The notes under the pieces were generated by a model. That model did no database searches. It was not told the DNA's origin and worked only from the letters and a program-made list of their open reading frames with translations. From assembly GCF_023516435.1 (NCBI RefSeq), contig NZ_CP097332.1, positions 434,001-498,000 on the forward strand: a stretch of DNA of 64,000 nt. The letters run 5' to 3'. How positions within the stretch are numbered: the stretch's first letter is position 1; each line of letters begins with the position of its first letter. Source of the stretch: Jatrophihabitans telluris. GTDB lineage: Bacteria > Actinomycetota > Actinomycetes > Mycobacteriales > Jatrophihabitantaceae. Below are positions 12,250 through 62,033 of this stretch, piece after piece. The position numbers and the translations under genes were made by a program.

Positions 12250-12332
12250 GTTGACGTTGCCCTTGTTGCGTGCGGGTCAGCGTTGACGTTGCCCTTGTTG
12301 CGTGCGGGTCTGCGTTGACGTTGCCCTTGTTG
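12250..12332. repeat. Three-copy tandem array, 32-bp period, core GTTGACGTTGCCCTTGTTG
   Basis: The 19-bp core starts at 12250, 12282 and 12314, giving an exact 32-bp period. The 13-bp linkers within the array are near-identical (CGTGCGGGTCAGC, CGTGCGGGTCTGC, then CACCGGGGTCAGC). The core is a variant of the one at 48.0 and 61.9 kb (C for G at position 6, T for C at position 15). It lies in the gap between the convergent ends of the subtilisin and phosphoesterase genes. Confidence 0.9.
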
Positions 12333-12350
12333 CACCGGGGTCAGCCCACC

Positions 12351-12418
12351 GCGAATGGGCGGTTCGATCACGAGTGGGCAGTTGTAAGCGCCCATTCGCG
12401 ATCGAACCGCCCATTCGC
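12351..12418. terminator. Large hairpin between convergent genes, probable bidirectional terminator or palindromic repeat
   Basis: Perfect 19-bp arms (12351-12369 GCGAATGGGCGGTTCGATC and 12400-12418 its complement) enclose a 30-nt centre that itself holds degraded copies of the arm tip (CGAGTGGGC and GCGCCCATTCG). There is no T-run. It lies 137 bp past the subtilisin stop and 63 bp past the phosphoesterase stop, immediately after the 32-bp array. Confidence 0.7.
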
Positions 12419-12481
12419 CAAGAGCGGGGGAGGGCCCGGCCCGGCCCGGTCTGCTCCGTGTCCGCCGGCCGGACGCAGCGA

Positions 12482-13564
12482 TCAGTGCTTGTTGGTACGG
12501 AACAGTCGTGTCATGGCTGGGACGCTGGAGTCGCCGGCGTGGGCGAGGTAGCCGAGACCGAAAGCGTGCTCCATGGTCTTGAGCAGCGAGTAGTGGTTGT
12601 AGCCGGTGTTGTCGATGATGTGGCGCGGGTGCTTCTGGTTGGTGATCACGATCGTCACCACGTGACCGCCGCCGACGGTCGATCCGCAGCATCCGGTTCC
12701 AGGTTGTCCGGAGTCGGAGTAGTCGTCCTCGTCCCACGTGATGACGATGGCGTTGTTGCCCTGACGCCAGGTTTGCGAGGCCATGATCGTCTTCACCATG
12801 TCGTTGACGTAGCTGTCACCGGCACTGATGAGTCCGGTCGTGTCGGAGCAGGGCCCGGTGCCGTGCATGTCGTGGCACTGATCCGGCACGACGAGGCTGT
12901 AGTTCGGCAGGGTGCGATGGGCCAGATCAGAGGCGAGTTGGGTGTCGGGAACCATGTTGTCCAGGGCGCCCTGAGTGTTGCGGAAGTTGAGGAACGGGTT
13001 GTGCTTGGAGGCATACAGCGCGTTCGAGTTGCTCGGGTACTTGAACGTGTACGGGCCGTTGGCTGCGGGGCCTGAAGTCACGAGCGTGGCCGGCGAAGGC
13101 GGCAGGCTCTGGAAGTACCCCTTCCACGTCTTGTTCGCTGCGGTCAGCTGGTCGGCGAGGTTGGGCCGGTTGACGGTGTGGTCGACGGTCGTGCCCGCAC
13201 ACATCGGGTCGGATGTGGCCATGGCAGGCGTGCAGTAGAACTGGTTGTCGTCCTGGATGCCGTAGTAGTCGCCGCCGATGTTGGCGACATAGTTCGGTTC
13301 GCTCGGGTGCGTCACGCCGTAGTAGTTGGTGGCCAGCCCGTAGCGGTTGGCCAACGCGTTCAGGTGAGGCGCGGCGGCGTTGCCGATGATTGAGGAATAA
13401 CTGGTGTTCTCCATCATGATCTCGACGATGTGCTGGTAGCGCACACTGTGACTGGCGGCGTCCTCTGATGGATGGCTGGTGACGGCCAACGACGAGACGG
13501 GCGAGGCTGCGAGCACGGCCGCCGTCAAGACCGCGACACCAGCAGCGATTGTCTTACGCTTCAT
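12482..13564 (-). CDS. Secreted phosphoesterase (phosphoesterase family, acid phosphatase/phospholipase C-like)
   Basis: 360 residues. A Sec signal peptide is clear (MKRKTIAAGVAVLTAAVLAA...). The family hallmark IVEIMMENTSYSSIIGN follows at about residue 45, with THPSEPNYVANIGGDYYG downstream and the metal-site signatures VVPDQCHDMHG and ITWDEDDY in the second half, typical of PF04185-type phosphatases that cleave extracellular phosphoesters. Length fits single-domain members. It is divergent from the phospholipase C gene, and the 277-bp gap contains a PHO-box-like triplet oriented toward this gene (13638-13670), suggesting induction under phosphate limitation. Substrate specificity cannot be read from sequence. 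Confidence 0.9.
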   Translation of the reverse strand: MKRKTIAAGVAVLTAAVLAASPVSSLAVTSHPSEDAASHSVRYQHIVEIMMENTSYSSIIGNAAAPHLNALANRYGLATNYYGVTHPSEPNYVANIGGDYYGIQDDNQFYCTPAMATSDPMCAGTTVDHTVNRPNLADQLTAANKTWKGYFQSLPPSPATLVTSGPAANGPYTFKYPSNSNALYASKHNPFLNFRNTQGALDNMVPDTQLASDLAHRTLPNYSLVVPDQCHDMHGTGPCSDTTGLISAGDSYVNDMVKTIMASQTWRQGNNAIVITWDEDDYSDSGQPGTGCCGSTVGGGHVVTIVITNQKHPRHIIDNTGYNHYSLLKTMEHAFGLGYLAHAGDSSVPAMTRLFRTNKH

Positions 13565-13637
13565 AGGTTGCTTCTCCTTCCACGAGGGCGAGCGGGGGGC
13601 GCGCGCTTGGGGCGAACCTAAACCCGTCCTCGTCGGG

Positions 13638-13670
13638 CGCAGATGAACCCACCTCTAACAGAGCGTGAAT
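13638..13670 (-). promoter_or_regulatory. Candidate PHO box (three contiguous 11-bp direct-repeat units)
   Basis: Read on the - strand the units are ATTCACGCTCT (13670-13660), GTTAGAGGTGG (13659-13649) and GTTCATCTGCG (13648-13638). This matches the actinobacterial PhoP pattern of 11-bp units with a conserved GTTCA-like half, with a weaker middle unit. It ends 74 bp upstream of the phosphoesterase start. The response-regulator gene that would bind it is at 61172. Confidence 0.55.
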
Positions 13671-13841
13671 AACCGGCGATGGCTCTCGCGCCCTGATGCG
13701 CACGCTTCAGGGGTCGTCCCTCGGGCCTGAAATGGTGATCAACGCCAACACTTCGGCTGATCTTCAACGGTCGTTTGCCCGGAACGTCCCGCCGGTGGGC
13801 AGGGTGAGGGGCACTCGCCCGCTCTGAAAGGTCGTGGTCTG

Positions 13842-15935
13842 ATGGTCAACGTCGATCGGCGCAGATTTCTCCAGCTGGCCGGTGGCACGGTAGGCGCCGC
13901 GGCGCTGAGCGCCATGTTCTCCGACAGCATCGCCCGCGCGGCGGCGATCCCCGCGAACCGTGCGACCGGGACCATCCGCGACGTCGAGCACATCGTGATC
14001 CTCATGCAGGAGAACCGCAGCTTCGACCACTACTTCGGCACGATGCGCGGCGTGCGGGGGTTCAGCGACCCGCACCCGGCGATGCTGCCCAGCGGTAAAA
14101 GCGTCTGGCACCAGTCGGACGGCCACGTCGAGACGCTGCCTTTCCGTCCCGACAAGGACAACCTGGCGCTGACCTTCATCGAGGACCTCGACCACAGCTG
14201 GGATCCGACCCATGCGATGTTCAACGGCGGCCGCTACGACCAGTGGATCCCGAACAAGACCACAACGGCCATGGCCCACCTGGAACGCAAAGACCTTCCG
14301 TTCCACTACGCGCTGGCCGATGCGTTCACCGTCTGCGACGCCTACCATTGTTCGCTGCTCGGCCCGACTGATCCCAACCGCTACTACATGTGGACCGGTT
14401 GGGTCGGCAACGATGGCAAGGGCGGTGGCCCCGTGATTGCCAACGACGAGATCGGTTATGACTGGACCACCTACCCCGAACGCCTGCAGAAGGCCGGTGT
14501 GGACTGGAAGATCTATCAGGACGAAGGGGCCGGACTGGACGCCGCCCACTTCTGGGGCTGGGGCAGCGACCCCTACATCGGCAACTACGGCGACAACTCG
14601 CTGCTGTATTTCCACCAGTACCAGAACGCCCCGGCCGACAGTCCGCTGGCCCAGCGCGCCCGGACCGGTACTGACGTCAAGGACGGTGGGGGCTTCTTCG
14701 ACATCCTCACCGCTGACGTCACGAGCGGGAAGCTGCCGAGCGTCTCCTGGATCGTGGCCCCCGAGGCCTACACCGAGCACCCGGCGTGGCCCGGTGGCTA
14801 CGGCGCCTGGTACACCGCCCAGGTCCTGAATGCGCTGACCAGCAACCCCGAGGTGTGGAGCAAGACCGCTCTGATCATCACCTTCGACGAGAACGACGGA
14901 TTCTTCGACCACATGGTTCCCCCTTACCCCAACGTCGGCGGACTGGGCGGGCACTCCACGGTCTCCACGGCGAACGAGTTGTTCACGGGAACCGCGGGCA
15001 CAGCCGGCGGAACCAACGGAACGGCCGGCCCGTACGGCCTGGGCGTGCGGGTTCCCATGCTGGTTGTCTCCCCGTGGAGCACGGGCGGCTGGGTCTGCTC
15101 AGAGACCTTCGACCACACGTCGCTGATCCGCTTCATCGAGGCTCGCCACGGCGTGCACGAGCCCAACATCACGCCCTGGCGCCGCACGGTCAGCGGAGAC
15201 CTCACCTCGGCCTTCGACTTCGGTCGCACGGCCACCAAGGTGCCGAACCTGCCCGACACCTCCGCCTACAAGCCCACGGCCAGTGCGCCGCCGAGCTACC
15301 ACCCGGTCCCGCCCACCCACGGTGCACTCCCCGTGCAGGAAGAGGGAATTCGCCCCTCGCGCGCTCTCGGCTACCAGCTGGCCGCGAACATCTCGGTCCT
15401 GGATTCCGCCCTGCGCCTGAAGCTGCGCAACCACGGCAGGCTCGGAGCCCACATCCAGGCCCGATCACTCACGATCCCCGGCGCCCCGTTCAGCTACACC
15501 ATCGGCCGCGAGGACCACATCGCCGTCGACCTGCCCCACCCGGGTCAGTACGACCTCTCCCTGCACGGACCGAACGGCTTCTACCGTCGCTACGCCGGCA
15601 CCCCGGACCTGAGCCTCGCCGTCGACGTCCTTGCTCGCGGACACTCCGCCCTGCAGCTCACGATGCGCCTGCACGGGCAAGCGCCCCGCCGGGTGCACGT
15701 CCGCCTCACCGACGCGTACGGCAAATCGCACACCGTCGAAGTCTCGGCCCACCGCCCCACCGTTCACATCGTGGAGACCAGCCACACTTACGGCTGGTAT
15801 GACCTGACGATCACCACCCCGGCCGACCCGGCTTTCGCCTACCAACTGGCCGGCCGCCTCGAGACCGGGCGTCCATCGAGCAGCGACCCTCAGCTCGGCC
15901 GTGGCCGGCTCCGCTCCACGGTCGGCGGGAGCTGA
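13842..15935 (+). CDS. Phosphocholine-specific phospholipase C, Tat-exported
   Basis: 697 residues, the usual size of bacterial non-haemolytic PLC. The N-terminus has a Tat motif (DRRRFLQLAGG) and hydrophobic region. The catalytic phosphoesterase domain opens with HIVILMQENRSFDHYFGTMRGVRGFSDP, where Glu-Asn is characteristic, and continues through IVAPEAYTEHPAWPGGYGAWY and TFDENDGFFDH. Two C-terminal DUF756-type beta modules follow (about residues 510-590 and 600-680). It hydrolyses phosphatidylcholine or sphingomyelin outside the cell, releasing phosphocholine. Divergent from a related single-domain phosphoesterase across an intergenic region with a PHO-box-like site, so phosphate scavenging is the likely context. 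Confidence 0.93.
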   Translation: MVNVDRRRFLQLAGGTVGAAALSAMFSDSIARAAAIPANRATGTIRDVEHIVILMQENRSFDHYFGTMRGVRGFSDPHPAMLPSGKSVWHQSDGHVETLPFRPDKDNLALTFIEDLDHSWDPTHAMFNGGRYDQWIPNKTTTAMAHLERKDLPFHYALADAFTVCDAYHCSLLGPTDPNRYYMWTGWVGNDGKGGGPVIANDEIGYDWTTYPERLQKAGVDWKIYQDEGAGLDAAHFWGWGSDPYIGNYGDNSLLYFHQYQNAPADSPLAQRARTGTDVKDGGGFFDILTADVTSGKLPSVSWIVAPEAYTEHPAWPGGYGAWYTAQVLNALTSNPEVWSKTALIITFDENDGFFDHMVPPYPNVGGLGGHSTVSTANELFTGTAGTAGGTNGTAGPYGLGVRVPMLVVSPWSTGGWVCSETFDHTSLIRFIEARHGVHEPNITPWRRTVSGDLTSAFDFGRTATKVPNLPDTSAYKPTASAPPSYHPVPPTHGALPVQEEGIRPSRALGYQLAANISVLDSALRLKLRNHGRLGAHIQARSLTIPGAPFSYTIGREDHIAVDLPHPGQYDLSLHGPNGFYRRYAGTPDLSLAVDVLARGHSALQLTMRLHGQAPRRVHVRLTDAYGKSHTVEVSAHRPTVHIVETSHTYGWYDLTITTPADPAFAYQLAGRLETGRPSSSDPQLGRGRLRSTVGGS

Positions 15936-16710
15936 GGGGATCCAGCGCTGATTTCTTCGCTGACCCATCCGGCGCTTATTGCGGCGGGGACGGACCTCCG
16001 GGCGGCCCGGGCAGCGTCACGTCACTCAGCGGTTTCCCGTCGTCGGTGACCCCAGTCATCGGGCAACGTCCGCTCTCGTGCACTCTCGTGCACTCTCGTG
16101 CCTGGTGGACCGATCAAAATCGGGCGATCACGCGTGCCGGATGCACGAGCCAGTTGAATCGGCCATGCGTTGTGGGCCCCGTCGGGCTCGAACCGACAAC
16201 CTACGGATTAACCTCCGAGGTCCTGCGAGAGCAGCCCTGAGACGGGCATTAGCGTGCTTGGTCGTAGTGCTGTGGTGGTGGTCCGGCGTCCGGGTCGTAC
16301 TCGCCGCGTCGCTTCCCAGATCGTTTCGTTGGCGCTCGCCTGGTCGCCCCCGTCACGCGCCTAGTCTGGGCCTGTGGCGGTGTCGTCGTGGTTCAGGAGA
16401 CTCTGGCCCTGGTCCTGGCGGGGCAAGGTGGGCGGATGGCCTAACGTCACGCCACCGACGGTTCCGCCGAGCGGCGGTCCTCCGGTGTTCGACCAGCCCC
16501 GTCGTCCGGACGACCAGGAGGAGCCACCGACCTGATAGCGGAGCACCTGAGCCTGCCGGAGTGGCCGGGTCAAGGGTGGCCGCAGGCCATCACGCAGTGA
16601 CGCGCAGCGCCCTTGATGCGGTCCGTAGGCGGGCGGATGCTCGAGCGTCGGGTCGGCGGCCGCAGGTGGGGTGTCCGAATGTGGGCGTTTCTGCACGTGG
16701 TGCCGGGCTG
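15936..16710. other. Gene-poor left end of the integrative island
   Basis: No convincing gene in this 775-bp stretch. It holds three 10-bp repeats of roughly CACTCTCGTG (16071-16100) and the tRNA-Lys-derived repeat that marks the island edge (16170-16211). Open frames here contain the GPVGLEPTTYGL peptide typical of antisense reading through a tRNA and are not genes. Confidence 0.6.
16170..16211. repeat. Left attachment-site copy: 42-bp direct repeat of tRNA-Lys 3' half
   Basis: Matches 25026-25067 at 40 of 42 positions in the same orientation. It covers the acceptor, T arm and part of the anticodon arm of tRNA-Lys but has no 5' half. The two mismatches are a compensatory C/G swap within the T-stem (GTCGG...CCGAC here, GTGGG...CCCAC in the intact tRNA), so the stem still pairs. 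This points to a 3' end from a different tRNA-Lys allele swapped at integration. Confidence 0.85.
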
Positions 16711-17487
16711 ATGGGCCCTGCTCTTGAAGTGCTTGGCAGGGCAACTACCGCTGGTCGGCGGGCGCAGGATCGATACGACGGTCTCGCTCGTGCATGGCGA
16801 CGTCGCAATCTCCGACTCTTTGCCACCGTCGCCCTCATATCTGGGTCCATCTTTGCGGTGTCGCTGGCCGGTGCGGTCATATGGTCGGGTCCAACCTGGA
16901 TGTTCGGATTCTTCGGCGGTGGCGCCGTGGCTTTCTTCATGTGCGCCTGGCTGACACCGCCGGCATTCGTCGAGAACTGGCAGTTCGGGGCTTGGGGAGA
17001 AGAGGCGACAGCAAGGGCGTTGCAGCCGCTCGAGCGGGACGGGTGGGTGGTCTGGCACGACCTCACCGCTGGTCGCGGGAATGTGGACCACGTTGCCGTG
17101 GGTCCCGGCGGAATCTTCCTCATGGGCTCGAAACGGCTGCGAGGCGTCGTCAACGTTGATGGGTCAGCCGTGACAGTGACCAGGCTGGACGATCCCGACC
17201 TCAGCTACGAGTTCACCGGGAGTCGGCACGTTCAGGGGCTTGCCCTCCAGGCCCATTCCCGGCTGGCAACCGGCAGCAAGATCCAGCAGTGTGTTCAGCC
17301 GGGGGTCGTGTTCTGGTGCGATTTTCCCAAGGGTCTCGTCGAAGACCAGCGGTGCACGTACGTCCACGGTGACGCGTTGGCCGAGTGGATGGCGGGGCAG
17401 CCGCAGCGGATCGCACCGAGTCGGGTCACGCACCTCGCGGAGGCCTTGCGGGCGTCCTGGGAGGACGCTGAGAAGCAACTGACATAG
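16711..17487 (+). CDS. NERD-domain membrane protein with substituted catalytic acid
   Basis: 258 residues, taken from ATG 16711; the frame is open far upstream but that part looks non-coding. Two adjacent transmembrane helices lie at about residues 35-85 (LFATVALISGSIFAVSLAGAV and MFGFFGGGAVAFFMCAW). The nuclease-related domain follows: GAWGEEATARALQPL, then GRGNVDHVAVGPGGIFLMGSKRL. In the family the last motif normally reads (D/E)-S-K; here residue 139 is Gly (GGC), one transition away from Asp (GAC), so catalysis is probably lost or altered. First cargo gene of the island. Role may be defence-related, as for other NERD proteins, but that is inferred. Confidence 0.8.
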   Translation: MGPALEVLGRATTAGRRAQDRYDGLARAWRRRNLRLFATVALISGSIFAVSLAGAVIWSGPTWMFGFFGGGAVAFFMCAWLTPPAFVENWQFGAWGEEATARALQPLERDGWVVWHDLTAGRGNVDHVAVGPGGIFLMGSKRLRGVVNVDGSAVTVTRLDDPDLSYEFTGSRHVQGLALQAHSRLATGSKIQQCVQPGVVFWCDFPKGLVEDQRCTYVHGDALAEWMAGQPQRIAPSRVTHLAEALRASWEDAEKQLT

Positions 17488-17838
17488 GGGAGTCGCTCGA
17501 CCCTGAATCCTGGTCGTCGGCGCTATGTCGTCATGCGCGGGGCCCCATCGCGGGGCCCCGCGCTGCGCCGCATCAGCGGCGCCTTGAGTCAGTAAGGAAA
17601 ATTCTCACGGGCGGTGACAGGAACGGAATACCACAGGAACGGAACGAGGACAGCGTTGCGACAGACCGTCCCCAAGGCGTCAATCTCGGGCCGAGGCCGA
17701 GGCCGAGGCACGCCCATCGCCGATGCGCTGCGGCGGCTCCGGTGCGTGACCTGTGCAACAGATGGCGAATTCGTGCCAGAGCTCCCTCGGGCTGGTCGAT
17801 GGGCGAAGCGCGGCGGGCGCCGCCCCGCGGACGGTAGG
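17488..17838. other. Intergenic stretch between convergent island genes
   Basis: 351 bp between the NERD gene and the end of the large R-M-like gene. Apart from the hairpin at 17535-17563 and a short run of GGCCGA units near 17695, nothing is recognisable. Short open frames here lack ribosome-binding sites and look like chance. Confidence 0.5.
17535..17563 (+). terminator. GC-rich hairpin terminator downstream of the NERD gene
   Basis: 12-bp perfect arms GCGCGGGGCCCC and GGGGCCCCGCGC with a 5-nt loop (ATCGC), starting 48 bp after the NERD stop. No T-run follows, as is common in high-GC actinobacteria. Confidence 0.65.
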
Positions 17839-23012: not shown

Positions 23013-23042
23013 GGGACTGACCCTACCCACGTCGGCCGACAT

Positions 23043-24944: not shown

Positions 24945-25025
24945 CACGCCACATCGCTTCTGGGGTCTCTTCCGCACTCCGGAGATGGCCCCCAAATGCC
25001 TCCAGCAGGCCTTTGACCTGCAGGT

Positions 25026-25067
25026 TTGTGGGCCCCGTGGGGCTCGAACCCACAACCTACGGATTAA
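25026..25067. repeat. Right attachment-site copy within tRNA-Lys
   Basis: 42-bp direct partner of 16170-16211, overlapping the 3' half of the intact tRNA-Lys. The crossover presumably lies in the anticodon-to-T-arm segment. Confidence 0.85.
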
Positions 25068-25100
25068 AAGTCCGCAGCTCTACCATTGAGCTAGAGGCCC
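25029..25100 (-). tRNA. tRNA-Lys (anticodon TTT)
   Basis: 72 nt on the - strand. Acceptor GGGCCTC pairs with GGGGCCC (one G-U pair), D arm GCTC/GAGC around AATGGTA, anticodon arm with loop CTTTTAA giving anticodon TTT, T arm GTGGG-TTCGAGC-CCCAC, discriminator A. CCA is not encoded (CAA follows). It serves as the integration site of the adjacent island. Confidence 0.93.
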
Positions 25101-26186: not shown

Positions 26187-26250
26187 GTCGTGCCTTTCGG
26201 GTTGAATCAATGGACATAACGGAGAGCGCGCGCCATGAGCGCGCGCACCA

Positions 26251-26667: not shown

Positions 26668-26682
26668 CACCAGGCGATGATA

Positions 26683-34024: not shown

Positions 34025-34272
34025 CCTCCGTCCGGCAGGGCGAACGGATCAGGCTCGGGAACGGGGACGGGGACGGGTTCGGGAACGGGGTCGGGTCCAG
34101 GCTCGGGAACGGGGGCAGGCCCGGGCTCGGGAACCGGGACAGGTCCGGGTTCGGGAACCGGTCCGGGTTCGGGAACCGGCCCGGGATCGGGAATCGGGGA
34201 TGGGCCGACCGGGTCCGGACCCGGGCTCGGCGGCGGAACCGACGGTCCGGGAGTGATGGGGGGAATGGTCAT
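34021..34272 (-). CDS. Proline-rich repeat protein (PEPGP repeats), tentative
   Basis: 83 residues, almost entirely Pro/Glu/Gly/Val (PEPGPVPEPGPVPVPEPGPA). It starts at ATG 34272 with GAGG 4 nt upstream and ends in a GTGA overlap with the GT2 gene, the same coupling used throughout the operon, which favours translation. The opposite strand would encode a Gly/Ser/Thr repeat with no start signal. It could be a disordered linker-like protein or simply a low-complexity leader; function unknown. Confidence 0.45.
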   Translation of the reverse strand: MTIPPITPGPSVPPPSPGPDPVGPSPIPDPGPVPEPGPVPEPGPVPVPEPGPAPVPEPGPDPVPEPVPVPVPEPDPFALPDGG

Positions 34273-35250: not shown

Positions 35251-36537
35251 GTGTCGATTCGCCGCGCCGCCGTTGTCGGTGGCAATCGCATCCCGTTCGC
35301 CCGCGCCAACGGCCCGTACGCCCGGGCCTCCAACCAGGACATGCTGACGGCAACCCTGGACGGTCTCGTGGCCCGGTTCGGGCTGCAGGGGGAGCGCCTC
35401 GGCGAGGTCGCGGCCGGCGCGGTGCTCAAGCACTCGCAGGACTTCAACCTGACCCGGGAATCCGTGCTCGGCTCGGCCCTGTCGCCGTTCACGCCCGCCT
35501 ACGACGTGCAACAGGCCTGCGGAACCGGGCTGGAAACGACGATCCTGGTGGCGAACAAGATCGCCCTCGGCCAGATCGACTCCGGCGTCGCGGGCGGTGT
35601 CGACACCGTTTCCGACGCGCCGATCGCCGTCAGTGAGGGACTGCGCACGGCGCTCCTGAACGCCAACCGCGCCAAGGACGTCACGGGTCGGCTCCGGGCG
35701 CTCGCGAAGATCCGACCCGCTCACCTGCTGCCGAACCCGCCCTCGAACTCCGAACCACGCACCGGCTTGTCGATGGGTGAACATCAGGCCATCACGACGG
35801 CGGAGTGGCAGATCTCCCGTACCGCTCAGGACGAACTCGCCGCCGCCAGTCACCAGAAGCTGGCCGCCGCCTACGACCGCGGCTTCATGGACGATCTCCT
35901 CACGCCCTTCCTCACCCTGACCCGGGACCAGAATCTGCGCCCGGACTCCACCGCCGAGGCGCTGGCCGCGTTGTCACCCGTCTTCGGCACCAGGCTGCCG
36001 AACCCCACGATGACCGCGGGAAATTCGACTCCGCTGACCGACGGAGCGTCCACCGTGCTGCTGAGCAGCGATGAGTGGGCCGCCGAGCACAACCTGCCGG
36101 TGCTGGCTCACTTCGTCGACGCCGAGACCGCGGCCGTCGACTACGTGCACGGCGACCGCAAGTACGACGGCCTGCTGCTCGCTCCGACCCATGCGGTTGC
36201 CCGCCTGCTGGAACGGAACAAGCTGACCTTCGACGATTTCGACTTCTTCGAGATCCACGAGGCCTTCGCCTCGACCGTCCTCGCCACCCTGGCGGCCTGG
36301 GAGGACGCTGACTTCTGCCGGGATCGGCTCGGCCGGTCCGCTCCGCTGGGCGCGATCGACCGCAGCAAGCTCAACGTCAACGGTTCCTCACTGGCGGCCG
36401 GGCATCCGTTCGCCGCAACCGGCGGCCGGATCGTCGCCAGCCTGGCCAAGCAGCTGCACGAGAAGGGGTCCGGCCGCGGCCTGATCTCGATCTGTGCCGC
36501 CGGTGGCCAGGGCGTGGTCGCGATCCTGCAAGCCTGA
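35251..36537 (+). CDS. Acetyl-CoA C-acetyltransferase (FadI/FadA2-like thiolase)
   Basis: 428 residues from GTG 35251 with AGGAGG 7 nt upstream; a start at 35179 is possible. Thiolase motifs are present: nucleophile Cys in QQACGTGLET, FEIHEAFASTVLA, and the C-terminal HP in GHPFAATGGR with CAAGGQG near the end. Cleaves 3-ketoacyl-CoA or condenses two acetyl-CoA. It heads a thiolase-FabG-dehydratase operon with the same content as fadA2-fabG4-htdX of Mycobacterium tuberculosis, implying a fatty-acid elongation or degradation module. Confidence 0.92.
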   Translation: MSIRRAAVVGGNRIPFARANGPYARASNQDMLTATLDGLVARFGLQGERLGEVAAGAVLKHSQDFNLTRESVLGSALSPFTPAYDVQQACGTGLETTILVANKIALGQIDSGVAGGVDTVSDAPIAVSEGLRTALLNANRAKDVTGRLRALAKIRPAHLLPNPPSNSEPRTGLSMGEHQAITTAEWQISRTAQDELAAASHQKLAAAYDRGFMDDLLTPFLTLTRDQNLRPDSTAEALAALSPVFGTRLPNPTMTAGNSTPLTDGASTVLLSSDEWAAEHNLPVLAHFVDAETAAVDYVHGDRKYDGLLLAPTHAVARLLERNKLTFDDFDFFEIHEAFASTVLATLAAWEDADFCRDRLGRSAPLGAIDRSKLNVNGSSLAAGHPFAATGGRIVASLAKQLHEKGSGRGLISICAAGGQGVVAILQA

Positions 36538-47977: not shown

Positions 47978-48014
47978 GGTGATGGTTCGGAACCGGCACC
48001 CCCAGCGGATGCCC

Positions 48015-48142
48015 GTTGAGGTTGCCCTCGTTGTCGCCCAGCCGCTGTTGAGGTTGCCCTCGTTGTGGCCCAGCGGCCGTTGAGGTTGCCGTTGTTGTCG
48101 CCTGGCCGCTGTTGAGGTTGCCCTCGTTGTCGCCCAGCGGCC
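48015..48142. repeat. Four-copy tandem array, 32-bp period, core GTTGAGGTTGCCCTCGTTG
   Basis: Cores start at 48015, 48047, 48079 and 48111, exactly 32 bp apart. The third core is altered (CCGTTG for CCCTCG). A degraded fifth start (GTTGCGCGGGG) follows at 48143. Linkers alternate between TCGCCCAGCCGCT-like and T(C/G)GCCCAGCGGCC-like forms. The array fills the gap between the S4-protein stop (48181) and the alpha/beta hydrolase start (47977), both - strand. Confidence 0.92.
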
Positions 48143-48180
48143 GTTGCGCGGGGCAGCGGTCCAGAGCGGGGCCCGAGCGG

Positions 48181-48399: not shown

Positions 48400-48428
48400 G
48401 GGTCCATCATCACCCACCGGGCCTGCGG

Positions 48429-49007: not shown

Positions 49008-49137
49008 AGCGTCCATTGTGCGGCCCGAACTGTGGCGACACGCCGGGGACGAACCAAAGTTCGGGCCGCACAATGTCTATGGGGGTGCTGGTTATGCTCA
49101 GGGTCACGGTGGTCGGGGGCGATATGCAGGGGGATCG

Positions 49138-51063: not shown

Positions 51064-51123
51064 GCGCACACGGTACCGCCGCCACCCCGCAGCCTGTGGA
51101 GTGCAAGGGCCGCCGGCGGAAAC

Positions 51124-52860: not shown

Positions 52861-53028
52861 GGGCTAACTCCTCACGGCAATGGGCGATCAAGCTCAGGTC
52901 AGGTCAGGTCACGACGGGGTCGGCGCCGGCCCATACATATTCTGCCGGTTTGTAAACGATGCCGCACGGGCAAGTATTTGTCGACCGGAACGCCTCCCGA
53001 CGGTGGCGCCCGTCGTTAGGGTGAGTTC

Positions 53029-53928: not shown

Positions 53929-53946
53929 CCGACCGGGAGGGCGCGC

Positions 53947-54768: not shown

Positions 54769-54775
54769 GGCCCGG

Positions 54776-55579: not shown

Positions 55580-55668
55580 GTCCGCGATTGTTCCCGACGA
55601 GGATGCGGCATGATCGAAGAGGTGCCCGTCGCGACCAGCGGCCGCCCCACCGGTTCTCAGGAGGACGT

Positions 55669-57033
55669 ATGCGCGAGGCTCGAGTGGCTCGCCATCTCGG
55701 CCTTCCGCACCGGGTGGCCACCCTGAGCGTGCATACGTCTCCGCTGGACCAGCCCGGTGCGGGCGACGCCGGTGGGATGAACGTGTACATCCTCGAGACC
55801 GCGAAACGGCTGGCCGAGTCCGGCGTCGAGGTCGAGATCTTCACCCGCGCGACCTCCTCGGACCAGCCTCGTATCGTCGAGGTCGCCGACGGCGTCTGCG
55901 TCCGCAACGTCATCGCCGGTCCGTTCGAGGGACTGTCCAAGCAGGATCTGCCCGCGCAACTGTGTGCCTTCGCGGCGGCGGTCCAGCGCGCGGAGGCCCA
56001 ACAAGAACCTGGCTGGTACGACCTCATCCACTCCCACTACTGGCTGTCCGGGCAGGTCGGTTGGCTGGCCCGCGACCGCTGGGCGGTCCCGCTGGTGCAC
56101 ACGGCCCACACGCTGGCCAAGGCGAAGAACGCCCAGCTGGCCGAGGGCGACACCCCGGAGCCCTACGCCCGGGTCATCGGCGAGGAACAGGTGGTGGCCG
56201 AGGCCGATCGGCTCATTGCGAACACGACGGACGAGGCCCACCAGCTCATCGACTGGTACGGCGCCGATCCCGCGAAGGTCACCGTGATCCCACCAGGGGT
56301 GGATCTGGAGACGTTTCGTCCGGTACCGCAAGGCTTTTCCTCATCGGCCGAGGTTTCGGTGCCCGAGCGGGGCGAGCAGGTCCGGACGGCCCGGGAACGG
56401 GCCCGCGCCCGGCTGGGGTTGCATCGCCAGGATCTGGTCCTGCTCTTCGTCGGTCGGCTGCAGCCGCTGAAGGCCCCGGACGTGCTCATTCGCGCCGCGG
56501 CCCGGATCGTGCAGGACCATCCCGAGCTCGGTGACCGGCTGCGGGTGGTCATTGTCGGCGCGCCGTCCGGGACCGGGCTGGCGGCGCCGGATTCCCTGCA
56601 ACTGCTGGCCGCTGAGCTGGGCGTCGCCGAGCGGGTGCGGTTCCTGCCCCCGGCGCCCCGGGCCGAGCTGGCCGAGTTGTACCGAGCCGCCGATCTCACC
56701 GTGGTCCCCAGCTACAACGAGTCCTTCGGCCTGGTGGCGATGGAGTCCCAGGCCTGCGGAACCCCGGTCGTGGCCGCGGCTGTCGGCGGTTTGCCGACCG
56801 CCGTGCTGGACGGGCGAACCGGCGTGCTGGTGGACACTCACCGCACCCAGGACTGGGCCGATGCGCTGGCGGCGCTGCTGGCTCAGCCGCACCACCGCGA
56901 CGAACTGGGCCATGCGGCCTACCTGCACGCGCAGGACTTCTCCTGGCGCCGGACCGCCGACCGCCTGCTGGGCGCCTACCGTGATGCCCTGGCGGAGTTC
57001 GCCCGGCTGGACGCCACCGGATCTATGGGCTGA
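55669..57033 (+). CDS. mshA: D-inositol-3-phosphate glycosyltransferase MshA (mycothiol biosynthesis)
   Basis: 454 residues; ATG 55669 with CAGGAGGA 4-6 nt upstream. GT-B family 4 glycosyltransferase. Donor and acceptor signatures of MshA are present: [48 protein letters not shown], and [25 protein letters not shown] with the E-x7-E motif. Transfers GlcNAc from UDP-GlcNAc to 1L-inositol-1-phosphate, the first step of mycothiol synthesis. The synteny with a YbjN protein and gpmA downstream supports the assignment. Confidence 0.95.
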
Positions 57034-57058
57034 CGGGGCTGACGGGGCTGATGCACTG

Positions 57059-57589
57059 ATGGGCGAGCTGAACGAGGCTGGACGGGCGGCGGCGGAAACC
57101 ATCCGGGCCAGCCTCTCCGACGCCGGGCTGGACTACACCGAGGCCGACCCCGGCGCGTTTGCGGTGAACCTGCCCGGTCAGCGCAGGTTGAAGACGGCCT
57201 GCTGGCTGATCGTGGGCACCCGTGGCCTGTCCATCGAGGCCTTCGTGGTTCGCAAGCCGGACGAGAACGTGGCCGCGGTGCATGGCTGGTTGCTGGCGCA
57301 CAACGCCAAGATGTTCGGGGTGGCCTGGTCCATCGACGACGTCGGCGACATCTATCTCAGCGGTCGCTGGCCGTTGGCGGCCGTCACGGCCGGGGCGATC
57401 GATCAGGTGCTGGGGTCGGTGCTCGAGTATGCGGACTCGTCGTTCAACACGTTGCTGGAACTGGGTTTCGGCTCCTCCATCCGGCGGGAGTGGGCTTGGC
57501 GGACGAGTCGCGGCGAGTCGACGGCGAACCTGGCCGCGTTCGAGGGCTACATCCGCCGCCACGAACCCGACGGAGAGCAGGACGGATGA
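57059..57589 (+). CDS. YbjN-domain protein (Rv0487-like)
   Basis: 176 residues; ATG 57059 preceded by a short TGACGGGGC tandem repeat. The fold is the YbjN/type III chaperone-like domain: LKTACWLIVGTRGLSIEAFVVRKPDENVAAVHGWLLAHNAKMFGVAWSIDDVGDIYLSGRWPL. This is the conserved gene between mshA and gpmA in mycobacteria. Function unknown. Its stop overlaps the next ATG (ATGA), so they are translationally coupled. Confidence 0.9.
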   Translation: MGELNEAGRAAAETIRASLSDAGLDYTEADPGAFAVNLPGQRRLKTACWLIVGTRGLSIEAFVVRKPDENVAAVHGWLLAHNAKMFGVAWSIDDVGDIYLSGRWPLAAVTAGAIDQVLGSVLEYADSSFNTLLELGFGSSIRREWAWRTSRGESTANLAAFEGYIRRHEPDGEQDG

Positions 57590-58305
57590 GCCCGGCCGAC
57601 ACGCTGACCATCGACCCCCGGTACAACGGACCGGCCGGGTCCGGCAACGGCGGCGTGACCGCCGGGATGGCGGCGGAGCTGCTCGGGTCCGACCACGCCG
57701 TGACCGTGACCCTTCGGCTACCGCCGCCGTTGGCCCGTCCACTGCGGGTCGAGCGCGGTGATCAGGGTCTGCGCATCGTCGACCGCGACGGCAGTCATGC
57801 CGATGACGGTGGCGCGATCGTCGCCGAGGCCGTGGTGTCCACCGACCGGCCGGCGCCGGTGCCGCCGGTAAGCGGCGTTATCGCGGCGCAGGCAGCGCAA
57901 CGATACGACGGGCTGCACGAGCACCCCTTTCCCACCTGCTTCGTCTGCGGCACGGACCGCCCGGACGGACTGGGGCTGCGTCCCGGCACGGTCGATCCCG
58001 CGGACCGGTCGGTGGTGGCGGCCCCGCTGACCGTTCCGGCCGGCCTCGGCTTGTCCGGGCCGGTGCTCGTGTGGGCGGCGCTGGATTGCCCCGGTGGCTG
58101 GGCGATCGATCTGGTGGGCCGTCGCGCCGTCCTGGGCCGGATGACCGCGCAGGTCTACGGAGTTCCTGTCGTGGGCGAGCCCTGTGTGATCACCGCGGTC
58201 TGCGAACGGTGGGATGGGCGGAAGGCGTTCAGTCGGTCCTCGTGTTACGGCGCGGACGGCGGCCTGCTCGGGATCGCGGCTCAGACCTGGATCGAGTTGC
58301 GCTAG
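57586..58305 (+). CDS. Conserved hotdog-like protein (possible thioesterase)
   Basis: 239 residues. Starts with [22 protein letters not shown], which resembles the N-terminal part of acyl-CoA thioesterase-like hotdog proteins, and contains a [17 protein letters not shown] segment with a Cys pair and [11 protein letters not shown] later. No other catalytic motif is certain. Coupled by ATGA to the YbjN gene and 22 bp upstream of gpmA. The role is not known; thioester hydrolysis is one possibility. Confidence 0.8.
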
Positions 58306-58327
58306 GCGGGCTGGCAGGATTACGGCC

Positions 58328-59077
58328 ATGAGTGAGACTGCGACCCTGATCCTGCTCCGTCACGGCGAGAGCGACTGGAACTCCAAGAACCTGTTCACCG
58401 GGTGGGTCGACGTGGACCTCACCGCGGAAGGGGAGGCGGAGGGACGCCGCGGCGGCCGTTTGCTGACCGAGGCCGGGCTCCTTCCGGACGTGGTGCACAC
58501 CTCGCTGCTGCGACGGGCGATCCGCACCGCTCAGATCTCCCTCGACGCGGCCGACCGGCACTGGATCCCGGTGCGGCGGTCCTGGCGGCTCAACGAGCGG
58601 CACTACGGCGCGCTGCAGGGCAAGGACAAGGCGGCGGTGCGGGCGGAATTCGGTGACGAGCAGTTCATGCTCTGGCGCAGGTCCTACGACGTGCCTCCGC
58701 CCGCGCTGGCCGACGACGACAGCTACAGCCAGGTCGGTGATCCGCGCTACGCCGATCTGCTGCAGACCGTGCCGCGGACCGAGTGCCTGTCCGACGTGGT
58801 CATCCGCATGATGCCGTACTTCTACGACGCCATCGTGCCGGACCTGCGTAACGGCACGGTCCTGGTGGCGGCGCACGGCAACTCGCTGCGGGCGCTGATC
58901 AAGCACTTGGACGAGATGTCCGACGATGCGGTCGTGAACCTCAACGTGCCGACCGGGATCCCGCTGCGTTACGACCTGGACCCGGCGACCATGATGCCGG
59001 TTCGCCCGGGCGAGTACCTCGACCCCGACGCGGCTGCCGCGGCCATCGAAGCCGTGGCCAACCAGGGCAAGAAGTAG
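58328..59077 (+). CDS. gpmA: 2,3-bisphosphoglycerate-dependent phosphoglycerate mutase
   Basis: 249 residues. Histidine phosphatase superfamily motif [26 protein letters not shown] with the phosphorylated His, [15 protein letters not shown] with the catalytic Glu, and [17 protein letters not shown] with the second His. Interconverts 3- and 2-phosphoglycerate in glycolysis. Length and the absence of extra domains fit dPGM. Convergent with phoU, the two stops separated by one base. Confidence 0.96.
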
Positions 59078-59078
59078 C

Positions 59079-59747
59079 TCAGGAAACCGGTCGGGAGGCC
59101 GATCCGGACTGCATCTCACCGGTGGCGATGAAGACGATCCGGCGTGCCACTCCGACGGCGTGGTCGGCGTAGCGCTCGTAGTAGCGGCCGAGCAGCGCCA
59201 TGTCGATGGCCGCTTCGGTGCCGTAGGCCCAGTTGTCGGACAGCAGCAACGTGAACAGCTTGCGATGCAGCGCGTCCATCGAGTCGTCCTCCGCCTCGAT
59301 GGCTTTGGCCAGCTCGACATCGCGGCCCTTGATGACCTCGGCGACCTTGTCCACCAGGGACAGCGCGACCTCCCCCATCTGGGAGATGACGTCGCGCAGC
59401 TCGGGTGGCACCGCGACGTCCGGATAGCGCATCCGCGCGACCTTGGCCACGTGCAGGGCCAGATCGCCCATGCGCTCCAGGTCGGCCACGAGATGCAGGG
59501 TGGTGATCAGGACCCGGAGGTCGGTCGCCACCGGCTGCTGCAGCGACAGCAATTGGAAGGTGCGATGCTCCAGATCGGCCCGCAACGCGTCGATGGCCGT
59601 GTCGTCGGAGACCACCCGCTCCGCGCCGTTGAGGTCGGCGTCGAGCAGGGCATTGGTGGCACGCTCCATGGCCGTGCCGGCCAGGTGCGTCATCGCCACC
59701 AACGAGTGTCCGATGTCGTCGAGCTCATCGTGATACAGATCGCGCAT
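59079..59747 (-). CDS. phoU: PhoU-family phosphate-signalling protein
   Basis: 222 residues. Two PhoU repeats: helical bundles with AIDALRADLEHRTFQLLSLQQPVATDLRVLIT and LVADLERMGDLALHVAKVAR (E-R-x-x-D), then DALHRKLFTLLL and YYERYADHAVGVARRIVFI (E-R-x-x-D). These acidic patches bind metal clusters. Modulates the Pst transporter and the sensor kinase. It is divergent from senX3, as phoU is from phoRP in Streptomyces, and a PHO-box-like site lies in the shared promoter region. Confidence 0.95.
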   Translation of the reverse strand: MRDLYHDELDDIGHSLVAMTHLAGTAMERATNALLDADLNGAERVVSDDTAIDALRADLEHRTFQLLSLQQPVATDLRVLITTLHLVADLERMGDLALHVAKVARMRYPDVAVPPELRDVISQMGEVALSLVDKVAEVIKGRDVELAKAIEAEDDSMDALHRKLFTLLLSDNWAYGTEAAIDMALLGRYYERYADHAVGVARRIVFIATGEMQSGSASRPVS

Positions 59748-59785
59748 GGGACCAGCGTAGAGGGCCGGGTAAGCGCCGTGGACCG

Positions 59786-59818
59786 CGTGCATGAACCAGT
59801 GGCGGACGTTCGGTGAAC
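59786..59818 (-). promoter_or_regulatory. Candidate PHO box upstream of phoU (three 11-bp units)
   Basis: On the - strand the contiguous units are GTTCACCGAAC (59818-59808), GTCCGCCACTG (59807-59797) and GTTCATGCACG (59796-59786). They match the 11-bp direct-repeat unit of actinobacterial PhoP/RegX3 sites. They end 39 bp upstream of the phoU ATG, in the phoU-senX3 intergenic region. Confidence 0.65.
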
Positions 59819-59889
59819 AGCGGGTGGCCAGAGCTTTACCGAGCCGTTCGGCGTGAAGAGCCCCGGTTTCGGGGCCGTACGATCGGCCC

Positions 59890-61104
59890 GTGACCGTCGT
59901 CGTGGTGGTGGCCGCGTTCCTGGCGGGTGCCGCAGTGAGCGCTGTCGTCCTGCTCCGGTGGCCTCCGTCGCCGGCCGGGCGTCCGGCCGACGACGCCGGG
60001 GTCACTGATCTTCCGCTGCCCGAACCGGTCCGCGCGCCGATGGCCGAGCGTGAGCTCGCCCGCAAGGTGCTCGGGGCGATCGACGTCGGGATCGTGGTGG
60101 TCGACCGGGACGAGGTCGCGATCTTCGCCAACGCGGCGGCCTTGCGGATGGGCGTGGTCGACCACGACCGGCTGACCGTGACCGTCCTGAGTGAACTGGT
60201 CCGGGAGGTCACCGACACCTGTGTTCCCGATGCGGTCGCCCTCGAGCTACCCGCCGTCAAGGGTGGTGACGTGGCCAGCTACCTGGTCACCGTCCTGCCT
60301 CTGGCCGATGATCTGGCGCACGGACGGGTCTCGACGGTGCTGCTGCGATTCACCGACATCACCGAGACCCGGCGGCTGGAGCGGGTCCGGCGCGATTTCG
60401 TCGCCAACGTCTCCCACGAACTCAAGACCCCGGTCGGCGCGCTGACCCTGCTGGCCGAGGCGGTGCAGGACGCGGCCGACGATCCGGAAGCGGTCCAGCG
60501 ATTCGCCCGGCGCATGCAGCACGAAGGCGCCCGGCTCGGCCGGCTCGTGCAGGAACTGATCGAGCTGTCCCGGCTGCAGGGCGCCGAGCCGCTGCCGGGC
60601 CAGGAGATCGTCGACGTGGCCTCGGTGATCTCCGAAGCGGTCGATCGAGCCAGGCTGGCCGCCGAGAGTGCCGGCATCACGGTGGTCGAACGCGCCGAGG
60701 GCTCCTTGAAGGTGCACGGTAACGAGACGCAGCTGGTGACCGCGGTGGCCAACCTCGTGGACAACGCGGTCGCCTACAGTCCTGAGCGGACCAAGGTCGG
60801 GGTGTCGGCCCGGGCGATGCGGGACGCCGACGGCACCGAGTGGGCCGAGATCGCGGTGACCGACCAGGGCATCGGCATCGCCGAGGTCGACCTGGATCGG
60901 GTCTTCGAGCGCTTCTTCCGCGTCGACCCGGCCCGGTCCCGCGCTACCGGAGGTACCGGGCTCGGCCTGGCGATCGTCAAGCACATCGCGTCCAACCACG
61001 GCGGATCGGTGGCCGTCTGGAGCGTCTCGGGCTCCGGATCCACCTTCACCATCCGGCTGCCGCTGGCCGGATCGCCCGCCGCCCATCCCAGGGTGGGCTC
61101 ATGA
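59890..61104 (+). CDS. senX3: Sensor histidine kinase SenX3/PhoR
   Basis: 404 residues from GTG 59890. One N-terminal transmembrane segment (VVVVVAAFLAGAAVSAVVLL), a PAS-like region (LGAIDVGIVVVDRDEVAIFAN...), then HisKA with the phosphoacceptor in FVANVSHELKTPVGAL and HATPase_c with N box VDNAVAYS, G1 VTDQGIGI and G2 GGTGLGLAIVKH. Phosphorylates RegX3 when phosphate is scarce; PhoU opposes this. 67 bp separate it from regX3. Confidence 0.95.
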   Translation: MTVVVVVAAFLAGAAVSAVVLLRWPPSPAGRPADDAGVTDLPLPEPVRAPMAERELARKVLGAIDVGIVVVDRDEVAIFANAAALRMGVVDHDRLTVTVLSELVREVTDTCVPDAVALELPAVKGGDVASYLVTVLPLADDLAHGRVSTVLLRFTDITETRRLERVRRDFVANVSHELKTPVGALTLLAEAVQDAADDPEAVQRFARRMQHEGARLGRLVQELIELSRLQGAEPLPGQEIVDVASVISEAVDRARLAAESAGITVVERAEGSLKVHGNETQLVTAVANLVDNAVAYSPERTKVGVSARAMRDADGTEWAEIAVTDQGIGIAEVDLDRVFERFFRVDPARSRATGGTGLGLAIVKHIASNHGGSVAVWSVSGSGSTFTIRLPLAGSPAAHPRVGS

Positions 61105-61171
61105 CCTGTCTCGAACAATCGTCCGGTGCGGAAAGGCCGAACCGGGCTGACAACAAGGAAGGAACGTGCCC

Positions 61172-61852
61172 GTGACCCGGGTTCTTGTCGTCGAGGACGA
61201 GGAGTCCATCTCCGACCCGCTGTCCTACATGCTCCGCCGTGAGGGTTTCGACGTGAACGTCGCGGCCACCGGCCCTGATGCCCTCGGCTCCTTCGACCGA
61301 ACCGGGGCCGACATCGTTCTGCTCGACCTGATGCTGCCCGGCCTGTCGGGGACGGAGGTGTGCCGCTCGTTGCGGCAGAAGTCCAATGTGCCGATCATCA
61401 TCCTGACCGCTCGCGACTCGGAGGTCGACAAGGTGGTCGGCCTGGAGCTCGGCGCTGACGACTACGTCACGAAGCCGTTCTCGCACCGGGAGCTGCTGGC
61501 CCGGATTCGCGCGGTCATGCGTCGTGGCGGTGAGAGCGAGGAACTGGTCACCGCAACGTTGGAGGCCGGCCCGGTCCGGATGGACGTCGAGCGGCACACC
61601 GTCGTCGTGGACGGCCAGTCGGTGTCGTTGCCGCTGAAGGAGTTCGACCTGCTGGAGCTGCTGCTGCGCAATTCCGGCCGCGTGCTCACCCGGGGCCAGT
61701 TGATCGACCGGGTGTGGGGCGCGGACTACGTCGGTGACACCAAGACGCTGGACGTGCACATCAAGCGGTTGCGGTCGAAGATCGAACCGGATCCGGCCAA
61801 CCCGAAGTACCTGCTCACCGTCCGCGGCCTGGGCTACAAGTTCGAAGCCTGA
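61172..61852 (+). CDS. regX3: Two-component response regulator RegX3/PhoP (OmpR family)
   Basis: 226 residues from GTG 61172 (GTG 61166 possible); AAGGAAGGA lies upstream. Receiver domain with VLVVEDEES, the phosphoacceptor Asp in DIVLLDLMLPGLSG, and LTARDSEVDKVVGLELGADDYVTKPF with conserved Thr and Lys. Winged-helix OmpR domain: LPLKEFDLLELLLRNSGRVLTR, VWGADYVGDTKTLDVHIKRLRSKIE, YLLTVRGLGYKFE. Expected to activate the Pho regulon through the 11-bp repeat sites noted at 13638 and 59786. The gene is followed by a large inverted repeat array. Confidence 0.95.
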   Translation: MTRVLVVEDEESISDPLSYMLRREGFDVNVAATGPDALGSFDRTGADIVLLDLMLPGLSGTEVCRSLRQKSNVPIIILTARDSEVDKVVGLELGADDYVTKPFSHRELLARIRAVMRRGGESEELVTATLEAGPVRMDVERHTVVVDGQSVSLPLKEFDLLELLLRNSGRVLTRGQLIDRVWGADYVGDTKTLDVHIKRLRSKIEPDPANPKYLLTVRGLGYKFEA

Positions 61853-61863
61853 CGCCTACGCCC

Positions 61864-62033
61864 GTTGAGGTTGCCCTCGTTGTTCGCAGGATGACGTTGA
61901 GGTTGCCCTCGTTGTTCGGATGATGTCGTTGAGGTTGCCCTCGTTGTTCGCAACGAGGGCAACCTCAACGGTGGGTGTCGCGCAACGAGGGCAACCTCAA
62001 CGGTTTGTGTCGCGCAACGAGGGCAACCTCAAC
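61864..62033. repeat. Inverted array: three direct plus three inverted copies of the 32-bp-period core
   Basis: Direct cores GTTGAGGTTGCCCTCGTTG start at 61864, 61896 and 61928; complementary cores CAACGAGGGCAACCTCAAC start at 61951, 61983 and 62015. The period is exactly 32 bp on both sides, and the central cores are 4 nt apart (TTCG), forming a long cruciform-capable palindrome with perfectly matching cores. Linkers differ on the two sides. Positioned between the convergent regX3 and DUF gene; the last inverted core supplies the TGA stop of the latter. Confidence 0.93.

Follow-up and report, generated by a model that had tools for sequence, protein, structure and literature searches.

Helically phased arrays of a 21-bp word on the Jatrophihabitans telluris chromosome: candidate sites for a DNA-binding protein

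Three loci in a 64-kb stretch of the Jatrophihabitans telluris chromosome (the window) carry short repeats that share one core at a regular period. The initial annotation of the window described a 19-bp core repeated every 32 bp, and proposed either co-aligned binding of one protein per unit or a dispersing repeat that expands locally. These loci raise the question of which reading fits better, and we addressed it by computing the copy number, geometry, divergence, polarity and placement of the repeat across the genome (4.19 Mb, one contig) and by searching for it in relatives.

The arrays in the window and their genome-wide family

All 13 annotated core copies were present in the window at their positions, where shuffling predicts 0.03; a fourteenth match at 36363 has 3 mismatches and is chance-like. 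Array 1 (12249..12333, plus strand) has three units with cores at 12250, 12282 and 12314 and lies between convergent genes encoding a subtilase family protein (PF00082; 9959..12214, plus strand) and a phosphoesterase family protein (PF04185; 12482..13564, minus strand). Array 2 (48014..48146, plus strand) has four units with cores at 48015, 48047, 48079 and 48111, the third with one mismatch, and a partial fifth unit (GTTG) at its 3' end. It is antisense to both flanking genes, which are on the minus strand and encode proteins of alpha/beta hydrolase type (PF20434; 47051..47977) and with an S4 domain (PF13275; 48181..48399). Array 3 follows a plus-strand response regulator gene (PF00072 and PF00486; 61166..61852), whose closest named match is from Geodermatophilus sp. 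(82%). Its plus arm (61863..61946; cores at 61864, 61896 and 61928) and minus arm (61951..62034; cores at 61951, 61983 and 62015) have three units each, carry unlike linkers and converge on a 4-bp junction, TTCG (61947..61950). All three arrays are intergenic as annotated, but the last unit of array 3 provides, with its core positions 3-5, the TGA stop codon (62029..62031, minus strand) of the minus-strand gene 62029-62892 (predicted start).

The genome-wide search for the core and its spacing revealed a regularly spaced family far larger than these three loci, with 467 exact copies and 555 when up to 2 mismatches are allowed, compared with 0 matches to the reversed pattern. The annotated 19-bp core is conserved, but the full conserved word has 21 bp, C-GTTGA(G/C)GTTGCCCT(C/T)GTTG-C, in which 95-98% of copies keep the leading C and 85% the trailing C, at array ends as elsewhere. 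The word is asymmetric and not a palindrome. Of the exact copies, 457 could be assigned to 107 clusters, and every one of these copies has a neighbour within 150 bp; the 10 unplaced copies, which could include lone ones, reflect plus-strand positions partly missed in mid-genome. Fifteen isolated matches (13 with 3 mismatches, two with 2) were removed before clusters were counted; predicted genes contain 14 of them, and the remaining one, at 3791337, lies between genes near a cluster. Geometry was counted over 534 units in 106 clusters, and a further cluster at 2.79 Mb was used in position counts only.

Spacing, polarity and divergence

Same-strand neighbours are spaced 31-33 bp apart in 375 of 377 cases, so that the random spacing that would have spoken against a phased element was not found. 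The 32-bp period holds for every run in the window and is not exact genome-wide (31 bp, 26 cases; 32 bp, 342; 33 bp, 7; 42 and 63 bp, one each), and no direct spacing is more than 1.5 bp away from a multiple of 10.5. Opposed copies within clusters form 51 converging junctions and no diverging ones, and no diverging pair of exact copies with a gap of 0-30 bp exists in the genome. The converging gaps measure 3-5 bp (29 junctions), 14-16 bp (15), 19-20 bp (2), 35-37 bp (3), 57 bp and 66 bp. They follow a separate 10.5-bp phase, with 49 of the 51 near 4 + 10.5n bp and two (19 and 20 bp) off phase. Outside the 3-5 bp class, 20 of 22 gaps lie within 1.75 bp of this series (p = 3e-8, with a phase window picked after inspection of the data), and 10.5 was the strongest of the periods scanned, from 9.5 to 12. 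The inner sequences of eight gaps of 14-16 bp appeared unrelated by eye. Units point in a single direction in 55 of the 106 clusters and form opposed arms in the other 51. Since single units make up 32 of the 157 runs, the lack of lone units beside the 55 single-direction clusters is unlikely (p = 4e-6), if run length is independent of having a partner.

The word is far better conserved than the 10-12 bp of linker that lie beyond it. Adjacent units differ at 74 of 6375 core positions (1.2%) when two free positions are left out and at 163 of 7125 when they are included, compared with 270 of 2453 linker positions (11%), and core positions 5, 10, 11 and 12 are invariant in 501 units from runs of two or more. 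As annotated, linkers are similar within a run and different between runs (11.5 versus 5.85 of 13 positions identical). Variants are shared within a run at 0.80, compared with 0.33 expected, and at 0.27 between opposed arms of the same cluster. The variants shared within runs bear out the local expansion proposed in the initial annotation; the dispersal proposed with it is neither supported nor contradicted, as there is no convincing target-site duplication and linkers give little indication of having been copied.

Chromosomal placement and occurrence in relatives

Clusters sit directly behind stop codons, and 4 of 106 overlap a predicted gene. Convergent gaps are enriched among array-bearing gaps (21/48 versus 140/956), and the avoidance of divergent gaps is not significant (6/48 versus 154/956); start codons are approximate because genes were called with a simple codon-usage finder. 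Between tandem genes, 15 cases are sense, 9 antisense and 17 both, with no clear strand preference. The regions beyond 1.2 Mb from dnaA, a cut-off chosen with the data already seen, are depleted of clusters without excluding them (16/107 versus 43% expected), and the origin-terminus skew persists in 10-kb groups (Rayleigh p = 0.005). A surplus of gene gaps near the origin was rejected as the cause of this skew (14.1 convergent pairs per 100 kb there and 12.2 on the far side, in a 400-kb sample), as was a replication-strand polarity, since 29 of the single-direction clusters face away from dnaA and 26 toward it. The 20 proteins flanking the ten clusters in divergent gaps include, by Pfam, two DNA-binding regulators (one of TetR type, one with HTH and TOBE domains); three of the other 18 have no family and the remainder function as enzymes, in transport or in housekeeping. 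None of these 20 neighbours stood out as the cognate protein, the two regulators included.

The element is restricted to one species among those searched. It is absent from eight congeners (assemblies 63-99% complete), and 396 other genomes of the order yielded a single copy in one and no array. When loci were compared between relatives, the response regulator of array 3 had orthologues in all eight congeners and an array followed none of them. Congener stretches contain local tandem repeats unrelated to the arrays, and no dispersed family of similar abundance was found in those of G001, G002 and G003 (120, 100 and 140 kb); the stretches of G006 and G007 came to ∼20 kb each. Three of the 106 loci were comparable with congener stretches. 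At locus 498910 (genome coordinates), the aligned flanks are 179 bp apart compared with 45 bp in G006, a difference of 134 bp at an array of 106 bp, and at locus 3108017 the gap is 291 bp longer than in G001. The response-regulator locus shows no clean insertion, since congener gaps (160, 96, 469 and 403 bp) are both shorter and longer than its own (268-303 bp). In viral contigs, 31 stretches each contain a single exact match and none contains an array; array 3 had no match in plasmid or phage sources, and two phased units occurred nowhere in a scan of named genomes, a set that possibly does not include our own. The annotation knew of no described element of this kind, and we likewise found none with these features among the papers that our literature searches listed, judged by title, in Rfam (for the window), or in plasmids and phages.

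A putative protein-site system and its alternatives

We consider it probable, though well short of certain and judged from sequence patterns, that the arrays are cooperative, helix-phased sites for a putative DNA-binding protein, iteron-like but scattered over the chromosome. Such a protein would recognise the 21-bp word in double-stranded DNA and bind cooperatively to at least two copies on one helix face. Two layouts would allow this: direct repeats three turns (31-33 bp) apart, and copies that face each other with their 3' ends and are separated by 4 + 10.5n bp. Word and geometry would be maintained by selection, and units would be added and homogenised within each arm by slippage or unequal exchange. 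Pressure against damage to genes and promoters would restrict the arrays to gaps downstream of stop codons, and a further constraint would keep them mostly off the replication-terminus side. Of the annotated ideas, co-aligned binding of one protein per unit fits best, with both protein and binding putative. Period and gaps could owe part of their regularity to descent from an ancestral array and not to selection. Restriction to one species of those searched is unusual for a basic cellular function and counts against the protein-site reading, and placement behind stop codons is equally expected of a tolerated functionless insertion.

Plasmid iterons are the nearest parallel. The iterons described in a review are 17-22 bp long, and TrfA of RK2 prefers at least two of them and loses cooperativity when they are offset by half a turn (PMC4980987). 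The arrays resemble the iterons of F, P1, R6K and RK2 in the length of the direct repeat, in the constant presence of a neighbour and in their arrangement on one helical face; they differ in containing converging pairs and in forming ∼107 clusters beside ordinary genes across the chromosome, whereas iterons lie in one origin. Noc- and SlmA-binding sites are likewise chromosome-wide and avoid the terminus region (PMC4331003, PMC4786541), where our candidate sites are depleted in part but not excluded. The about 70 Noc sites are discrete palindromes (PMC4331003), not phased arrays of asymmetric 21-mers. A search with PF02195 found one ParB protein, near dnaA, and no second ParB-family candidate for Noc; seven of the eight congeners likewise had one above the cut-off.

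A non-autonomous mobile element made of transposase-binding repeats, with the converging arms as its two ends, is possible but unlikely. Tn7-type and IS21-type elements have such multi-site ends, and a dispersed repeat limited to one species among those searched, whose copies never diverge, would suit this explanation, as would the extra length at locus 498910. Neighbouring arrays are also clustered (31 pairs closer than 5 kb versus 17.1 expected), and 190 run pairs share at least 10 linker positions compared with ∼98 in a shuffled null, a modest excess. However, a target-site duplication was not convincingly present in the 106 clusters (324 offset/length tests, of which the best gave z 3.4), no conserved tip lies outside the word, more than half of the clusters lack the second end, and linkers match far less between runs than within them. 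The Y1 transposase family (PF01797), the one covered by our search, was found in none of the nine genus genomes, including our own, and in 5 of 14 control genomes. REP/BIME sequences are intergenic, lie behind genes in hundreds of species-typical copies, as the arrays do, and have a palindromic unit and a Y1 transposase, RAYT. The non-palindromic word, the weak folding of single-direction arrays and the missing Y1 transposase fit this family poorly. A MITE was disfavoured for want of a convincing target-site duplication and because opposed arms, present in 51 clusters, are lacking in 55. CRISPR arrays share the regular repeat-spacer layout, but their spacers differ within an array, and the similar linkers of 10-12 bp at ∼107 loci make this a poor fit too.

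We give little credence to functionless tandem repeats grown by replication slippage, with a core alike everywhere by historical accident. Local homogenisation is clear, and the congener stretches show that unrelated tandem repeats occur in the genus, but slippage leaves unaccounted for one core at ∼110 loci with unrelated linkers, a core that diverges some ten-fold less than the linker of the same units, the phase of the converging gaps, and the absence of diverging copies and of lone exact copies. Equally improbable is an RNA-level element, a hairpin terminator or 3'-UTR signal chiefly serving convergent genes. The enrichment in convergent gaps suits it, 27 of the 51 junctions, with gaps of 3 or 4 bp, would give hairpins with small loops, and the folds of opposed-arm clusters are strong (45 clusters folded; median z of -6.2 on one strand and -7.0 on the other). 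Yet 55 of 106 clusters lack the inverted partner, single-direction arrays (54 clusters; median z -1.2 and -1.5) fold only a little better than shuffled controls, tandem pairs show no significant strand preference, and a helical gap phase has no evident use in RNA; seven clusters of more than 260 bases each were left out of the folding. The single Rfam match in the window is a tRNA and none falls at an array, and an intrinsic terminator, for which only the opposed-arm clusters fold strongly, fits poorly. A DNA-uptake or self-recognition tag like those of Neisseria or Pasteurellaceae is hardly credible: hundreds of copies of a lineage-specific word, with inverted pairs behind genes, would agree with it, but uptake tags are also found within genes and are not known to form phased arrays, and few clusters here overlap a predicted gene. 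Copy number counts in favour of a tag, as uptake motifs occur hundreds to thousands of times in a genome (PMC2346458).

For the protein-site reading, we infer selection as the cause of the order, the protein itself, its cooperativity, and any part it may have in marking or organising the origin side of the chromosome. More speculatively, and with a low probability, the arrays may be the cis half of a new and recently evolved chromosome-organising system, in which a protein forms phased filaments or bridges at ∼110 mostly origin-side loci and leaves the terminus side largely free. Its function would resemble nucleoid occlusion or concern an origin domain, in a group in which a recognisable nucleoid occlusion may be lacking, as in Corynebacterium glutamicum (PMC3566199).

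Overall, the arrays present an unusual case of an apparent genome-wide protein-site system arising in one lineage, with hundreds of copies, a core that diverges far less than its linkers, strict helical phase and polarity, and no counterpart in eight congeners. If they are functionless, such geometry can persist through some copying process, which would be equally odd. The arrays provide a natural experiment in which the beginnings, spread and positioning of such systems can be studied, and they could lead directly to a chromosome-binding protein that may be new.

Arrays of a shared word in the window and the genome

The initial annotation described three arrays of a repeated core in the window. 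All three are present, beyond chance: array 1 at 12249..12333 (plus strand), array 2 at 48014..48146 (plus) and array 3 at 61863..61946 (plus) with 61951..62034 (minus). At up to 3 mismatches the window contains 14 core matches (0.03 expected), 13 of them within arrays. We then counted the core, GTTGASGTTGCCCTYGTTG, in the whole genome of Jatrophihabitans telluris (4,193,897 bases, one contig, completeness 99.86%; window at 434001-498000), which contains 230 + 237 exact copies and 273 + 282 copies at up to 2 mismatches, while the reversed core pattern, used as a control, has 0 copies genome-wide. Using listings and fetched stretches, we placed 457 of the 467 exact copies (223/230 plus, 234/237 minus) and 538 of the 555 near copies, resulting in 107 clusters. 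Every placed exact copy has a neighbour within 150 bp (457/457; the 10 not placed could differ). The joint analysis set comprises 106 clusters with 534 units (single copies); the 107th cluster, seven minus units at 2.79 Mb, was used for position counts only. Fifteen isolated matches (2 or 3 mismatches each) were left out as chance; 14 of these lie inside predicted genes.

A consensus from 51 runs, or same-strand series of units (3.0-3.8 Mb plus the window, one weight per run), gave a conserved 21-bp word, C GTTGA S GTTGCCCT Y GTTG C; 3 bases past it, a G is preferred more weakly. Of 157 outer array ends, 98% keep the leading C, and of 55 such ends, 85% keep the trailing C; hence, both are part of the word. 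The 32-bp period first noted at three loci recurs across the genome, where same-strand neighbours are spaced by 31 (26 cases), 32 (342), 33 (7), 42 (1) and 63 bp (1). Opposed copies have their 3' ends facing each other in all 51 junctions of the 106 clusters. Diverging junctions were found neither in clusters nor among exact copies at gaps of 0-30 bp genome-wide. The converging gaps measure 3-5 bp (n=29), 14-16 bp (n=15), 19-20 bp (n=2), 35-37 bp (n=3), and 57 and 66 bp (once each). Twenty of the 22 gaps beyond the 3-5 class deviate by at most 1.75 bp from 4+10.5n (binomial p 3e-8, a guide only, as phase and tolerance were chosen post hoc), and a scan from 9.5 to 12 bp gave the strongest phase at 10.5 bp. 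The direct repeat period likewise corresponds to three helical turns. Single-unit runs (32/157) each have an opposed partner, and there are no lone units beside the 55 single-direction clusters (p 4e-6, assuming that run length is independent of a partner).

The window contains other repeats. A second hairpin family, around GCGAATGGGCGGTTCGATC, adjoins array 1 at 12345-12417; with 3 mismatches allowed, the analysed genome parts contain 22 matches to it, among them a run at genome coordinates 3672967-3673527 with a period of 177-187 bp. A GC-rich imperfect tandem repeat with periods of 6/12/18/24 bp occupies 34052-34204. The sole Rfam match of the window is a tRNA gene at 25029-25100, minus strand.

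Divergence of word and linker, and occurrence in relatives

Comparing adjacent units in 126 runs, we observed core differences at 163/7125 positions, or 74/6375 without the two variable (S and Y) positions, and linker differences at 270/2453 (inner 11 linker bases). Core and linker belong to the same units and share the same history, so the gap acts as an internal control, and the approximately ten-fold lower divergence of the core points to constraint on the word. Core positions 5, 10, 11 and 12 showed no changes across the 501 units of these runs. Mismatches were commoner in edge units (0.22) than in inner units (0.14).

Linker identity is 11.5/13 within runs versus 5.85/13 between runs, and 190 run pairs share at least 10 linker identities versus about 98 in a column-shuffled null. 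We read this modest between-run excess as composition plus a weak common linker pattern; it could hide some shared descent. Variants at the S and Y positions agree at 0.80 within runs versus 0.33 expected, and at 0.27 between the two arms (opposed runs) of a cluster. Hence, each arm grows independently, and it is improbable that the core is templated genome-wide.

None of eight congeners contains the core at up to 1 mismatch. Among the 41 genomes of this search, 5 had any match, namely the host and four others in which one or two matches lie scattered, and the exact core is present in 2 of 397 genomes drawn evenly from the order, the host and one genome with a single copy. The response-regulator gene adjoining array 3 (61166..61852, plus) is kept in 8/8 congeners with 82-85% identity, and the array behind it was not found in any of them. 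A different hairpin (GATCATCTCGCGTTT ... AGACGCGAGTTGATC) follows this gene in G007, G006 and G004 (stretches L032, L033 and L035). Its words also occur at up to 3 mismatches in stretches of G001, G002, G003 and G006, clearly above chance only in G006. Comparison with congeners was feasible for 3 of the 106 loci in fetched stretches: the distance between aligned flanks is 179 bp versus 45 bp in G006 at genome coordinate 498910, 530 bp versus 239 bp in G001 at 3108017, and 268-303 bp at the response-regulator locus, where the four congeners compared have 96 to 469 bp. Local tandem repeats are numerous in stretches L104-L119 of G001-G003 and apparently have no common core; a sizeable share of them have periods of 14-28 bp (such as an 18-bp repeat in 6.4 copies at L106 5176-5290).

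Position relative to genes and the origin

The 106 clusters lie in convergent (52), tandem (41) and divergent (9) gaps or overlap a predicted gene (4). In the contiguous 3.0-4.19 Mb, convergent gaps are enriched (21/48 array-bearing versus 140/956 array-free; Fisher p 3e-6), tandem gaps are depleted (21/48 versus 662/956; p 4e-4), and no significant difference is seen for divergent gaps (6/48 versus 154/956; p 0.7). Flanking stop codons lie a median 9 bp from the array edge; for flanking starts the median is 92 bp. At 27 of the 114 edges with the outer unit in gene direction, including window 62029, the TGA inside the outermost core is the gene's stop codon. The protein ending at 62029, compared by eye, seems longer than in G006. 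Arrays in tandem gene pairs are sense (15), antisense (9) or in both directions (17), showing no clear strand preference. Proteins flanking the window arrays belong to ordinary Pfam families in 5/6 cases and to no family in 1/6; the 20 proteins beside divergent-gap clusters include 2 DNA-binding regulators (TetR type; HTH with TOBE) and 3 without a family, the others being ordinary.

Outward from dnaA (170.9 kb; parB at 164.5 kb), seven 300-kb bins contain 30, 18, 15, 28, 8, 3 and 5 clusters (KS p 1.5e-8). Because neighbouring arrays are clustered (31 spaced <5 kb versus 17.1 expected), we merged arrays within 10 kb, and the resulting 66 groups gave a Rayleigh p of 0.005. Thirteen of the 66 lie more than 1.2 Mb from dnaA versus 42.8% expected (p 7e-5, with the cut-off picked after the bins were inspected); if four unplaced arrays were all on the far side, p would be 0.001. 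Convergent pairs are about equally frequent on the far (12.2 per 100 kb) and origin side (14.1) in a 400-kb sample. Arrays far from dnaA are depleted, not absent. Across the chromosome, array direction does not track replication (29 against 26).

Proposed protein binding and known systems

Among the matches listed from an open literature library, there was no published description of such arrays. Noc and SlmA sites, as described in two papers (PMC4331003, PMC4786541), are lacking in the terminus region. The origin-side skew of the arrays is reminiscent of this, but the sites themselves are unlike; a second ParB-family protein was not found in the host genome. A chromosome-organising role appears improbable to us. 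The arrays resemble iterons in appearance, yet are no origin. According to a review (PMC4980987), iteron plasmids have sites of 17-22 bp, of which TrfA prefers two or more, and a half-turn shift abolishes cooperativity. Whole-turn spacing in two geometries, the two-unit minimum, fixed polarity, low word divergence and the lack of strand preference suggest protein binding to duplex DNA with neighbour contacts. A putative protein would bind at the word and contact neighbouring bound copies; the arrays are probably arrays of protein-binding DNA sites.
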